Shown piece after piece: positions 8,752 through 38,338 of a DNA stretch of 64,000 bases (position 1 is the stretch's first letter; the number at the start of each line of letters is the position of its first letter). The DNA is from an uncultured Ignatzschineria sp. Lineage in GTDB: Bacteria > Pseudomonadota > Gammaproteobacteria > Cardiobacteriales > Wohlfahrtiimonadaceae. The position numbers and the translations under genes are program-made. The stretch covers positions 1-64,000 of the forward strand of contig CALZEE010000009.1 of the NCBI GenBank assembly GCA_945639195.1, read 5' to 3'. The notes under the pieces are model-generated. The model was not told the origin of the DNA. It did no database searches and saw only the letters and a program-made list of their open reading frames with translations.

Positions 8752-9783
8752 TCAATTTTCTAATCGTGCTAATAGTAATCGGTTAATTTCTTCAATTAAC
8801 ACTGGGCCTTCATAAATAAATCCGCTATATAATTGCACTAAGGAAGCGCCGGCATCGAGCTTATCTAATGCATCTTTTGCACTCATAATCCCGCCAACGC
8901 CAATAATAGGGAAGCGTCCATCGCTCTCTTTTGCTAAAAAACGGATCACTTCTAACGATTTCTGTGTCAAAGGTGCTCCACTTAAGCCCCCTGCCTCATC
9001 TTTATCTGATGACAACAAGCCCTCTCTAGAAATCGTGGTGTTTGTCGCAATAATGCCGGCAATATCAGATTCATCGACAATTTCGACAATCTCTTTTAAC
9101 TGGTCTTCCGATAGATCTGGGGCAATTTTCAGCAAGATGGGTTTTGGCACCGGATACTCGCGGTTACGCATCTGTAGCGTACTGAGTAATGCTAATAAAG
9201 GTGCCTTCTCTTGAAGCTCTCTCAGATTCGGCGTATTGGGAGAACTTACATTTACGACAAAGTAATCCACAACCTCAAATAAGGCCTCAAAACAGCAGAG
9301 ATAATCATCGACAGCATTCTCATTCGGGGTAAGCTTGTTCTTGCCAATATTCCCCCCAATAATGAGTCCATGATCTCGCTTGAGCAATCTTATTCTCGCC
9401 GCCTCTACGCCATCATTATTAAATCCCATGCGATTAATAATGGCGTGATCCTCCACTAAACGGAATAATCTTTTTTGAGGATTTCCGGGCTGACCTTTAG
9501 GCGTAACCGTGCCAATTTCCACAAATGAGAACCCAAGAGCCCCCAATGCTTTATAGAGCTTGGCATCTTTATCAAAGCCCGCAGCTAACCCGACGGGATG
9601 CTTGAACTTTATTCCAAAAACTTCTCTCTCTAGCCGAGGATCATCCATCACGCCATGAGGATCTATGACCCTCTTTCGTATGAAAGGCAACTGATTTAAA
9701 AGACGAATCCCGATAAATGAGAGGTGATGTGATCGTTCAGGATCAACTCTAAATAAACATTTTTGAATAATTCGCTTTAACAT
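8752..9783 (-). CDS. pyrD: Dihydroorotate dehydrogenase (quinone), class 2
   Basis: Membrane-associated flavoenzyme that oxidises dihydroorotate to orotate with quinone as acceptor, step four of pyrimidine synthesis. The 343 residues include an N-terminal amphipathic extension typical of class 2 ([15 protein letters not shown]), [11 protein letters not shown], the catalytic serine region [25 protein letters not shown] and the FMN phosphate motif [20 protein letters not shown]. It is not near pyrF and pyrE, which lie at 33.6 kb in this window. Confidence 0.95.
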
Positions 9784-32703: not shown

Positions 32704-33448
32704 CTACATCTCTCTTTTCATTCAAAGGGGCTTTTGATCAATTTGATAGAATCAATATCGGTTGCCAGTTCGGCATATTGATCTACTTAAATTTGGTTTT
32801 AGATAGATTTAGCACTATCTATCTAAAAGGGAGCTGTTCTCTTAAATTCAAGAACCTTTTTCTCAACTAATTCTTAATTGCTGTTGAGAATCATTATTAT
32901 TAGATAGTTAATTGCATTTGTCTACTGTTTTTAACGTATTTTTTTATCTGTTTATTTATCTCTATAAGATCAATGTCTTATATTTTAAATTTTCCAAATA
33001 ATTTCTAAAAAACTTCTAAACGGGGTCTCTTTTTTGCTAAAAATTGAATTTTTCTGTGGGTATAAGCCTGTGATTCTTGAAATTTATGCAGCCTCTTATA
33101 CAGAATCACGTCTTAATCGGTTGATAGATCATTCGATAATCTTTAAACAATGATCTCCGCCGACTTTCTACCTATCAATCTTGATAACGGTATCTTTAAT
33201 AAAACAAATCCCCTTATTAGTCCTTCGCAATAATAGTAAGCATGCCAACACCACAGCATCAATAGGATCTGTCATTAAAAGTTGATCGCTATTTCAGCAC
33301 CTTCTATCTTTTTTAAGATTTTTATCCAAAGTTATTCCCGGGGATCTCCTAAGGGTTATAAACAGAGTTATCCACAAGCTAGCATCTCATATCGATATTA
33401 TTAAATGAACCAATCCCCACTATTTTTACCTTCATAGAGCGATCTGTC
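32704..33448. other. Divergent region between Fur-regulated gene and pyr leader
   Basis: About 750 bases without a recognisable gene, AT-rich. It holds the Fur box (32885-32899) and a perfect DnaA box TTATCCACA at 33368-33376 inside the longer word AACAGAGTTATCCACAA, which recurs at 41 and 44.6 kb. Short frames here show no family-like sequence. Confidence 0.4.
32885..32899 (-). promoter_or_regulatory. Fur box
   Basis: The minus-strand word TAATAATGATTCTCA fits the 7-1-7 Fur consensus TGATAATnATTATCA at 12 of 14 defined positions. It lies upstream of the siderophore-binding protein gene that starts at 32703. Confidence 0.7.
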
Positions 33449-33477
33449 TTCCCATTCATAGAATCGGGTGTTAAAAT
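33449..33477 (+). promoter_or_regulatory. Promoter of the pyrFE leader
   Basis: TTCCCA (33449-33454) and TAAAAT (33472-33477) are separated by 17 bases, a moderate sigma-70 match. It is placed correctly for a short leader RNA beginning near 33485. Confidence 0.5.
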
Positions 33478-33524
33478 ACTGCCAATTTTTAAAATCATCG
33501 AAAACAACTGTAAGGAGAGTAGTT

Positions 33525-33575
33525 ATGAATATCTGTACAACACGCATTCGCCACTCTTCTTACATTATGAAATAG
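33525..33575 (+). CDS. Candidate pyr leader peptide (16 residues)
   Basis: The ORF MNICTTRIRHSSYIMK has a strong TAAGGAGAG ribosome site six bases upstream. Its TAG stop (33573-33575) lies inside the 5' arm of the terminator that follows. The second half of the ORF is pyrimidine-rich (CACTCTTCTTACATT). This layout matches translation-coupled, UTP-sensitive attenuation as known for enterobacterial pyrBI and pyrE: when UTP is scarce RNA polymerase pauses, the ribosome catches up and blocks the hairpin. The ORF itself is seen; the mechanism is inferred. Confidence 0.7.
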   Translation: MNICTTRIRHSSYIMK

Positions 33576-33600
33576 CCGACAATAAGTCGGCTATTTTTTT
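33572..33600 (+). terminator. Attenuator terminator before pyrF
   Basis: The hairpin ATAGCCGAC-AATAA-GTCGGCTAT runs straight into seven T, a strong intrinsic terminator 26 bases before the pyrF start. It would silence pyrFE unless a ribosome translating the leader prevents folding. Confidence 0.85.
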
Positions 33601-33625
33601 GGAAAAATAAAAGAAAGAACTCACA

Positions 33626-34336
33626 ATGACAAAACCAATTATTGCTCTCGACTTTCCAAACTACCTTGAAACCAAGGCATTTTTGGAAATGATGCCAAAA
33701 GAAGAAGAACTCTATATCAAAATCGGTATGGAACTCTTCTACAATGAAGGCCCAATGTTAGTAGAAACACTTAAAGCACGTGGCTACGAAGTTTTCTTAG
33801 ATCTTAAACTCTACGATATTCCTAACACCGTTAAAAGTGCCATGATTGGGCTTGCTAAAATGGGTGTTGATATGGTGAACGTCCATGCTGCCGGCGGTAA
33901 ACGCATGATGGAAGAAGCGCTTGAAGGGTTAGAGATCGGGAGTGGAAACTCAAAAAGACCTCGCTTAATTGCCGTGACGCAGCTCACAAGTATGAGCGAA
34001 AAAGAGATGCAACAAGAGCAAAATATTCAAACAAGCTTACTCGAGTCAGTCATTCACTACAGTAAAATGACAAATAACTCAGGTCTTGATGGCGTTGTTT
34101 GCTCTGCACTTGAAGCAAAAATGGTGAAAGAAAACACCCGCGAGAGTTTCCTCTGCGTAACGCCGGGAATTCGCCTTGCCTCAGATGCAGCAGATGACCA
34201 AAGAAGAATCATGACACCGTTTGATGCAAAACAAAATGGTTCAAGCTATATCGTTGTAGGACGATCAATCACACAAGCAAAAGATCCTCTTAAAGCTTAT
34301 TACACTGTTAAAGAAGAATGGGAAAGAACACTATGA
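33626..34336 (+). CDS. pyrF: Orotidine 5'-phosphate decarboxylase
   Basis: Last step of UMP synthesis. The 236 residues are the usual class I length. Motifs are PIIALDFPN near the start, the catalytic [15 protein letters not shown] (Lys and Asp network) near residue 60, VTQLTSM, and the phosphate-binding PGIRLA and [12 protein letters not shown]. Its TGA overlaps the ATG of pyrE, so the two are translationally coupled. Expression is expected to pass through the leader terminator at 33.57-33.6 kb. Confidence 0.96.
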
Positions 34337-34959
34337 TTAAAAATGACGTTGCTGAAGCACTCCTCTCCATTAATGCTGTATCGCTCTCACCAAATGAGCC
34401 ATTCACTTGGGCATCGGGTTTAAAATCACCGATCTACTGCGATAATAGATTAATCGTGAGCTATCCTGAGGTTCGTAAATTTATCTCTAAAAATCTCATT
34501 AAGCTTATTCAAGAAAATTTCCCTGAAGCAGAAGTGATTGCCGGAACAGCTACCGCTGGTATTCCCCACGCATCATGGGTAAGTGCTGTTTTAGAAAAAC
34601 CAATGGTTTATGTGAGAAGCTCGCCGAAAAAACATGGCCGTGGAAATATGATCGAAGGGATCATTACTCCTGGTCAAAAAGTGGTAATTGTTGAAGACTT
34701 AATCTCCACTGGCGGCAGCTCAATTACCTGTGCGCACGCACTTCGTGATGCCGGCGCTGATGTGATTGGCGTTGCAGCAATCTTCTCTTATGAGCTTCCT
34801 ATCGCTGCAGAAAACTTTGGGAAAGAGGAACTCCGTTACGCAACTTTAAGCAACTATCCTGCGCTTGTTGAAACGGCGTTAAAGAAAAATATTATCACTG
34901 AAGAAGAGCGTGTTGCGCTGACTGAGTGGAATAAAGATCCGGGTAGCTGGGGTAAATAA
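34333..34959 (+). CDS. pyrE: Orotate phosphoribosyltransferase
   Basis: Makes OMP from orotate and PRPP, the step before PyrF. The 208-residue start at 34333 ([11 protein letters not shown]) overlaps the pyrF stop as ATGA, which is preferred over an in-frame ATG five codons upstream. Visible features: [28 protein letters not shown], the basic loop [15 protein letters not shown] and the PRPP-binding [14 protein letters not shown]. Pairing with pyrF is efficient, since OMP passes directly to decarboxylation. Confidence 0.96.
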
Positions 34960-35466: not shown

Positions 35467-35496
35467 AAAAAAGCCTCTTATATAAAGAGGCTTTTT
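35467..35496 (-). terminator. Terminator of the queF-yhhQ unit
   Basis: Hairpin AAAAAGCCTCTT-ATATA-AAGAGGCTTTTT with T runs on both strands; it lies about 65 bases past the yhhQ stop. Confidence 0.8.
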
Positions 35497-37123: not shown

Positions 37124-38338
37124 ATGTCTCAGCACAATCACGTCCCTACTATCGAGAAAGGGGATCGGAAGACTCTGCTCGCTTCAACCCTTGGCTACGC
37201 CATGGATGGTCTTGATATTATGATTCTCGCTTTCGCCTTAATTCTCATCAAGGCGGAATTTGGTCTCACCGACGCACAAGGTGGGATGATTCAAACCATC
37301 ACCTTAATCGGGACTGTTATCGGGGGAATCGTCTTTGGGATGCTCGCTGATAAATATGGTCGTGTTCGCGTCTTTAACTGGACAATCCTTCTCTTCTCCG
37401 TCTTTACAGGTTTAGCCGCAATTTCGACATCTGCAGAGATGTTCACAACATTCAGATTTATTGCCGGACTCGGTCTTGGTGGTGAATTTGGAATCGGGAT
37501 GACATTAGTGGCTGAAACATGGCCTGCTAAAAAACGCTCACGCGCGACAGCCGTCGTTGCTATTGGTTTCCAAGTGGGGATCGTCTTAGCGGCACTCGTC
37601 AGCCTCCTCTCTCCTTACATCGGCTGGCACGGTATGTTCCTCATTGGGGCGCTTCCGGCAATTTTAGTCTGGTGGACGCGCCGTAACTTAAGCGAACCAG
37701 AAATTTGGTTACAAGTAAAAAGAGAGAATCGTAACAAAATCTCGATTAAACCCCTCTTTAAAGATTCACGCACAACCCTTACAACCATTGGTCTTATCAT
37801 CGCGACAAGTGTTCAAAACTTTGGATTCCACGGCATTATGATCTGGATGCCTACAATGCTTGCAAAAGAGCATGGCTTTACCCTTTCAGGCACTTTCTAC
37901 TGGACCTTAATCACTACGCTCGGCATGGTGATCGGTACGCTGACTTTTGGTGCTACCTCAGATAAGATTGGTCGTCGCCCTACTTATATCTTCTTCTTAA
38001 TCGTGAGTGCAGCCTTTGTATGGATCTACTTCCAACAATCAAACTACTACGTATTGATGTTCTTAGGCGCGATTTTAGGCTTCTTTGTGAATGGAATGAT
38101 GGGCGGCTACGGTGCGCTTCTCTCAGAACATTACCCCACTGAAGCTCGCTCTTCTGCACAGAATATTATCTTCAACTTAGGTCGTGGTATTGCGGGCTTT
38201 GCACCGCTGATTATTGGAACGCTGGCGATGCAATACAATATTAGTTATGCACTCGGAATGATCTCTGGGGTATATCTCTTATCAGCGCTCGCATTTATCT
38301 TCTTAATTCCAGAAACAAAAGGGAAAGCTCTCGATTAG
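37124..38338 (+). CDS. MFS transporter, metabolite:H+ symporter type
   Basis: Twelve-segment major facilitator of 404 residues. The motif GMLADKYGRVRVFNW after helix 2 and its C-terminal counterpart GATSDKIGRRPTYIF after helix 8 are clear. The N-terminus with GYAMDGLDIMILAFALILI (aspartate-containing helix 1) and GLGLGGEFGIGMTLVAETWP resembles the group that carries organic and aromatic acids or sialic acid. The substrate cannot be decided. It is a single gene with its own terminator. Confidence 0.85.
   Translation: MSQHNHVPTIEKGDRKTLLASTLGYAMDGLDIMILAFALILIKAEFGLTDAQGGMIQTITLIGTVIGGIVFGMLADKYGRVRVFNWTILLFSVFTGLAAISTSAEMFTTFRFIAGLGLGGEFGIGMTLVAETWPAKKRSRATAVVAIGFQVGIVLAALVSLLSPYIGWHGMFLIGALPAILVWWTRRNLSEPEIWLQVKRENRNKISIKPLFKDSRTTLTTIGLIIATSVQNFGFHGIMIWMPTMLAKEHGFTLSGTFYWTLITTLGMVIGTLTFGATSDKIGRRPTYIFFLIVSAAFVWIYFQQSNYYVLMFLGAILGFFVNGMMGGYGALLSEHYPTEARSSAQNIIFNLGRGIAGFAPLIIGTLAMQYNISYALGMISGVYLLSALAFIFLIPETKGKALD

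Follow-up and report, generated by a model that had tools for sequence, protein, structure and literature searches.

Organization of the pyrF locus

The window, that is, the whole 64,000-nucleotide stretch of DNA analysed here, comes from a 2.45-Mb Ignatzschineria genome, and the closest named matches to its pyrF gene are Ignatzschineria species (97–98%). It contains pyrF, pyrE and a DUF1622 gene in one operon, preceded by a promoter, a short leader open reading frame (ORF) and an intrinsic terminator (Table 1). An initial annotation, made from the letters alone, had placed a leader ahead of pyrF-pyrE-DUF1622; the gene identities are borne out by matches to NF001273, PF00215, TIGR00336 and PF07784. 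The start of pyrE overlaps the stop codon of pyrF. The DUF1622 gene lies 3' of pyrE in every Ignatzschineria checked; it was not found in the sister-genus operon or in the Jeotgalibacillus loci compared.

Table 1 Features of the leader and operon (positions in the window)
Feature	Position	Strand	Basis
Predicted promoter (TTCCCA, 17 nt, extended -10 TGT-TAAAAT)	33449–33477	+	Consensus match; -10 conserved
AATTTTT, predicted initially transcribed, candidate for UTP-dependent slippage	33484–33490	+	T run conserved; likeness to pyrBI
P1 5' arm TGTAAGGAGAGT, holding the leader SD	33509–33520	+	Minimum-energy fold; arm-swap test
Shine–Dalgarno sequence (SD) AAGGAG of the leader ORF	33512–33517	+	Sequence; found in all 11 leaders
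Leader ORF, 16 codons and TAG (33573–33575), peptide MNICTTRIRHSSYIMK	33525–33575	+	Sequence; ORF kept in 11 of 11 leaders
Pyrimidine-rich tract, proposed UTP/CTP-sensitive pause region	33549–33568	+	Sequence; pausing inferred
P1 3' arm ACTCTTCTTACA, anti-SD in the pyrimidine tract	33553–33564	+	Fold; arm swap; pairing probabilities; pair counts
Intrinsic terminator (attenuator), 12-bp stem, AATAA loop, 7 T, holding the leader stop codon	33569–33600	+	Sequence; fold; core conserved
pyrF, orotidine-5'-phosphate decarboxylase	33626–34336	+	NF001273 (308 bits); PF00215
pyrE, orotate phosphoribosyltransferase	34333–34959	+	TIGR00336 (149 bits, above cut-off)
DUF1622 gene, 119 amino acids	34966–35325	+	PF07784
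Terminator-like hairpin 3' of the operon	35468–35496	+	Consensus scan

The leader ORF (ATG AAT ATC TGT ACA ACA CGC ATT CGC CAC TCT TCT TAC ATT ATG AAA TAG, preceded by TGTAAGGAGAGTAGTT) has a strong SD and closes inside the 5' arm of the terminator, as the initial annotation had described, and its second half is indeed rich in pyrimidines (15 of 20 bases). This tract is 36–40% U, with C as frequent as U; the pyrBI tract is more U-rich, and U content is higher in some relatives, the sister genus above all. The terminator stem pairs 33569–33580 with 33586–33597 (12 pairs, one of them G-U) and its T run spans 33594–33600. A simple terminator scan of the window missed it, probably because the stem runs on through A-T pairs into the T run. 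The leader as a whole (33509–33609, 101 nt) folds at -34.4 kcal/mol (z = -6.3), and none of 200 shuffled sequences folded as well.

The predicted promoter carries an extended -10 element at 33469–33477, followed by ACTGCC-AATTTTT with a predicted +1 at 33484/33485. Further upstream, at 33368–33376, a perfect DnaA box (TTATCCACA) is embedded in ACAGAGTTATCCACA and resembles part of E. coli oriC; single or paired DnaA boxes are found upstream of pyrF in several relatives too. A replication origin at 32704–33500 was considered and dropped: the region has one strict DnaA box and no cluster, and the GC-skew minimum lies instead at 52–56 kb.

Conservation of the leader

The layout is found at pyrF in all nine Ignatzschineria genomes and both sister-genus genomes examined. 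Each of these 11 leaders has an SD, an ATG, an open frame of 15–25 codons, a stop at the hairpin, a terminator and a T run. The CCGAC/GTCGG stem core and the T run are invariant, and the leader stop ends between -9 and +10 nt relative to the CCGAC core. The initial annotation had made its reading depend on conservation of the ORF frame among relatives, and the ORF is kept throughout, in two genera. A covariance model built for the leader scored 68–118 bits at a single strong site in each of these 11 genomes, the one at pyrF; in 85 other gammaproteobacterial genomes no score exceeded 39 bits. The layout was not found at pyrF in the other relatives inspected, most of which have pyrF directly after another gene, with no such leader. 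A search of Rfam gave the leader sub-threshold matches only, none above a gathering score.

Could the arrangement be an ordinary terminator next to an ORF that is open by chance, with no regulatory role? In the window alone the stop falls within the stem in 65% of shuffles when the frame is taken as open, and by itself its position there is unsurprising. Across six lineages, however, the distance from ATG to core varies (51, 52, 53, 57, 52 and 81 nt) and the frame closes at the hairpin each time; the corresponding shuffle chances are 0.65, 0.10, 0.34, 0.76, 0.11 and 0.09, with a product of about 2e-4 if the lineages are independent. Promoter, SD, ORF and terminator are conserved together in the 11 leaders, the ORF map of the window shows no gene on the + strand upstream of the leader that would need a terminator, and if termination were constitutive, the genes that follow would be silent. 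We thus regard a chance ORF as very improbable.

The leader peptides are unrelated between lineages (MNICTTRIRHSSYIMK, MKTTQIAIRFSLFIE, MGQVKIVTNHRSFYLMNNRH, MKQTRQTRCSQINHS, MQMNSITIYRSPYLF and MQKMIITCPQGTAFQAVLSLFIRFF), and a conserved leader peptide was rejected on this ground. Since both sequence and length of the peptide vary, what appears to be maintained is translation as such. Of the leader peptide proposed in the initial annotation, what stands is a conserved, translatable ORF; the peptide itself is not conserved between lineages, and the leader is thus not a peptide-specific one. The same comparison bears on attenuation by ribosomes stalling at amino-acid codons, for which a leader peptide and a terminator are both in place. 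No codon is repeated or conserved among the lineages, and folding the leader without the terminator 3' arm gave no antiterminator that pairs with the 5' arm. The stop moreover lies in the stem, whereas more than 20 bp separate the leader stop from the terminator in amino-acid attenuators (PMC4824070). Amino-acid attenuation was rejected on these three grounds, and we find it scarcely credible here. An attenuator that depends on PyrR was rejected as well, NF003549 having no match in the nine Ignatzschineria genomes.

Comparison of the leaders also brought out a feature absent from the initial annotation, which is the start region. The extended -10 element (TGnTAnAAT) is conserved across the Ignatzschineria leaders, a stretch of three or more T near +3 occurs in every one of the 10 leaders aligned, and AA precedes the T run within the genus; the sister genus has TATAATGCTACGC-GTTTTG. 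The E. coli pyrBI start region reads TATAATGCCGGAC-AATTTG, at the same distance from the -10 element, and the start is AATTTG in Proteus and Photobacterium and GTTTTG in Klebsiella. UTP-dependent slippage requires a T run and proceeds more readily when the initiating base is A (PMC6245113). The predicted Ignatzschineria start, a conserved extended -10 followed by AATTT(T), is thus like the slippage-prone start of pyrBI and would lend support to a pyrBI-like leader as a second feature, independent of the hairpins.

The pyrimidine-rich tract pairs with the leader SD

In the minimum-energy fold, TGTAAGGAGAGT pairs with ACTCTTCTTACA over 12 bp to form a hairpin, P1, which makes the pyrimidine-rich half of the ORF an anti-SD (Table 1). 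The tract was as the initial annotation described it; its pairing with the leader's own SD had been overlooked. The 3' arm lies within the codons His-Ser-Ser-Tyr-Ile.

MAFFT alignment shifts the P1 3' arm by 1–3 columns in some lineages, and for this reason an alignment-free arm swap served as the main test of P1. Summed over the representatives, the leaders' own arms pair at -90.2 kcal/mol, compared with a mean of -69.9 kcal/mol over the 720 possible assignments, and rank 2 of 720; a second set of representatives behaved likewise. The comparison of sequences thus shows that the two arms co-vary between lineages. Against shuffled 3' arms, P1 scores z = -2.8 to -4.0 in 7 of the 11 leaders and about -2.4 in the two from the sister genus, and is weak in one species pair (z = -1.4 and -0.15 in G007 and G002). 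In an alignment fitted to the covariance model, 85% of P1 cells form a pair, versus 32–56% when the partner is slid; pair-wise covariation, from pair counts on the same alignment, is modest. In complete leaders the SD is paired with a mean probability of 0.76 or more in 10 cases out of 11 (0.55 in G002); before the tract emerges, the value is 0.17–0.58.

Timing and proposed mechanism

The order in which these structures become available was computed by exposing the RNA stepwise, with the active site set 14 nt ahead of the exposed end; the calculation is one of equilibrium. In the window the SD is 0.2–0.4 paired until polymerase reaches about 33568. It closes with polymerase at about 33572–33576 and is 0.99 paired at about 33576, as polymerase leaves the tract. 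With a ribosome placed at the stop codon, P1 and the terminator are both gone from the fold and the SD, freed again, is 0.34 paired.

From the sequence and these folds, we propose that the leader is a pyrimidine-responsive, translation-coupled attenuator of pyrF-pyrE-DUF1622 that works like those of E. coli pyrBI and pyrE, a reading to which we assign a probability of roughly two-thirds. The pyrBI/pyrE-type geometry put forward in the initial annotation gains support from all 11 leaders, from the stop at the hairpin and from the pyrBI-like start; UTP sensing is what we infer from them. When pyrimidines are plentiful, RNA polymerase would pass the pyrimidine-rich end of the leader fast, the emerging tract would pair with the leader SD and block ribosome loading, and the terminator would form, ending transcription before pyrF. 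When UTP, and perhaps CTP too, is scarce, polymerase would slow in the tract before the SD is closed off, allowing a ribosome to load, translate the 16 codons to the stop in the terminator 5' arm and cover the hairpin, with read-through into pyrF. The AATTTTT start may contribute UTP-sensitive slippage at initiation. Points against the proposal are the modest U content of the tract, the weak P1 of one species pair, the lack of sequence homology to pyrL and the shortness of the leader: with just 48 nt between ATG and stop, coupling would need a real pause of the polymerase. A ribosome ending close to a terminator can act in this way elsewhere: with a stop codon moved to 5 bp before a terminator, termination fell from about 90% to less than 10% (PMC4824070).

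Locking of the SD is the least certain step of this scheme. P1 might instead be mainly a hairpin-stabilized pause site, as in his and trp leaders, that holds polymerase until the ribosome arrives; its overlap with the SD would then be secondary, and the system pyrBI-like with no SD lock. A terminator less than 100 bp into a gene is usually out of the ribosome's reach unless the polymerase pauses (PMC4824070), and P1 lies upstream of the terminator, as the 1:2 hairpin does in classical leaders. A mere pause hairpin would not need the register with the SD, however, and P1 pairs the SD itself in each lineage with a strong P1, including the sister genus with its 25-codon leader. We consider the pause-hairpin reading unlikely. 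Less likely still is a response of the leader to translation capacity in general, as set by ribosome availability or by inhibitors, in which the opening of P1 by a ribosome, and not nucleotides, would decide termination. The same anatomy would serve, but conservation of the pyrimidine-rich tract and of the AATTT start favours nucleotides as the signal, and the genes downstream are pyrimidine genes.

If the SD lock holds, the pause tract is also the anti-SD, and thus a fast polymerase would not only outrun the ribosome but also lock the site at which the ribosome starts. A single sequence would then turn polymerase pausing into ribosome loading, which would help to explain how a 16-codon leader can be tuned by ribosome arrival.

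Pyrimidine metabolism and origin of the operon

PyrB was not found in the nine Ignatzschineria genomes, in which there was only a match at the level of ornithine carbamoyltransferase (OTCase), and PyrC of either type gave nothing above cut-off in the six Ignatzschineria genomes searched; the same searches found PyrB and PyrC in a related genus (g2). PyrD (8755–9771), Upp, PyrE and PyrF are present. A genus with no recognizable PyrB or PyrC but with PyrD, PyrE and PyrF suggests that the operon may serve orotate salvage, and judging by its gene content the genus may need orotate, dihydroorotate or uracil from its surroundings. Ignatzschineria would then probably scavenge orotate or dihydroorotate, the pyrFE operon being the controlled step.

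The sister-genus operon goes on, 28 bp 3' of pyrE, to a gene for a major facilitator superfamily (MFS) protein of the aromatic acid/H+ symport type (1741–2928 of locus L131). Its orthologue in the window (37124–38338) is about 2 kb downstream, as it is in three other Ignatzschineria. The MFS protein is a candidate orotate transporter, and orotate uptake followed by conversion to UMP is our working idea.

Among the non-family loci compared, Jeotgalibacillus matches PyrF (58%) and PyrE (54–55%) best and has the same order, pyrF-pyrE; in most relatives pyrF stands in another gene context. The pyrF-pyrE pair may have come from Bacilli and then been placed under a new leader.

Comparison with known attenuators

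In E. coli pyrBI, polymerase runs ahead at high UTP and terminates, and at low UTP it pauses and a ribosome keeps the terminator from folding (PMC10135430). In its features, the Ignatzschineria leader agrees with the pyrBI/pyrE attenuators and departs from the amino-acid type. The controlled genes are pyrF-pyrE-DUF1622 and the genus has no PyrB, so we say that the leader works like, and not that it is, a pyrBI attenuator.

The leader shares with E. coli pyrL-pyrBI a promoter followed by an AATTT start, a short leader, a pyrimidine-rich tract and a terminator that could be blocked by the leading ribosome; no sequence homology was found between the Ignatzschineria leader and pyrL. The two differ in the genes downstream, pyrFE here, and in dimensions: 16 codons with 44–48 nt from ATG to stem here, compared with 44 codons and 88 nt in E. 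coli, where the ORF runs past the stem and does not end in it.

The predicted folds also agree in pairing the ribosome-binding site with a U-rich tract. Enteric pyrL leaders, taken from records of a plasmid collection (several of them chromosome-sized), were folded for comparison. In each of E. coli, Klebsiella, Proteus and Photobacterium, the fold of lowest energy pairs the ribosome-binding site with the U-rich tract before the attenuator. By shuffling, this pairing does not exceed what composition predicts for E. coli, Klebsiella and Proteus (z = -0.6 to 0.5), in which we accordingly do not claim it as shown, and is marginal in Photobacterium (z = -1.9); the Ignatzschineria P1, by contrast, is much stronger than its composition predicts. 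The modelled pairing in enteric leaders is thus a lead and not a result. In a literature comparison made without the main review, the papers found, PMC10135430 and PMC4824070 among them, do not discuss it. Two genome samples were searched for further pyrBI leaders, and no pyrL-like leader was seen. It is a tentative and on balance doubtful suggestion that a pause tract doubling as anti-SD, so that time spent in the tract sets ribosome loading, is an overlooked general part of pyrBI-type attenuation, as the topology of enteric pyrL hints, and is clearest and co-varying here, in an operon of organisms with no recognizable PyrB or PyrC. It would make a testable addition to the textbook model, namely a second role of the pause tract in closing the ribosome site of the leader.

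With the rph-pyrE attenuator of E. coli the leader has in common that translation ends at the edge of a terminator ahead of a unit containing pyrE, a dedicated leader ORF here taking the place of the upstream structural gene. In L058 and L059, the regions ahead of pyrB in genera g2 and g3, the gene directly 5' of pyrB stops about 11 nt short of a T-tailed hairpin, an arrangement that looks like that of rph-pyrE.

The trp and his attenuators likewise combine a leader peptide, an upstream hairpin and a terminator, but their sensing codons, antiterminator and gap between stop and terminator have no counterpart here. The PyrR-controlled pyr attenuators of Bacillus also act on pyr genes, including a pyrF-pyrE pair; there a protein binds the RNA, whereas Ignatzschineria, in which no PyrR was found, has a leader ORF. 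If our reading is correct, pyrimidine control of the repressor-free pyrBI style extends to a different operon, pyrFE, and to a different lineage.
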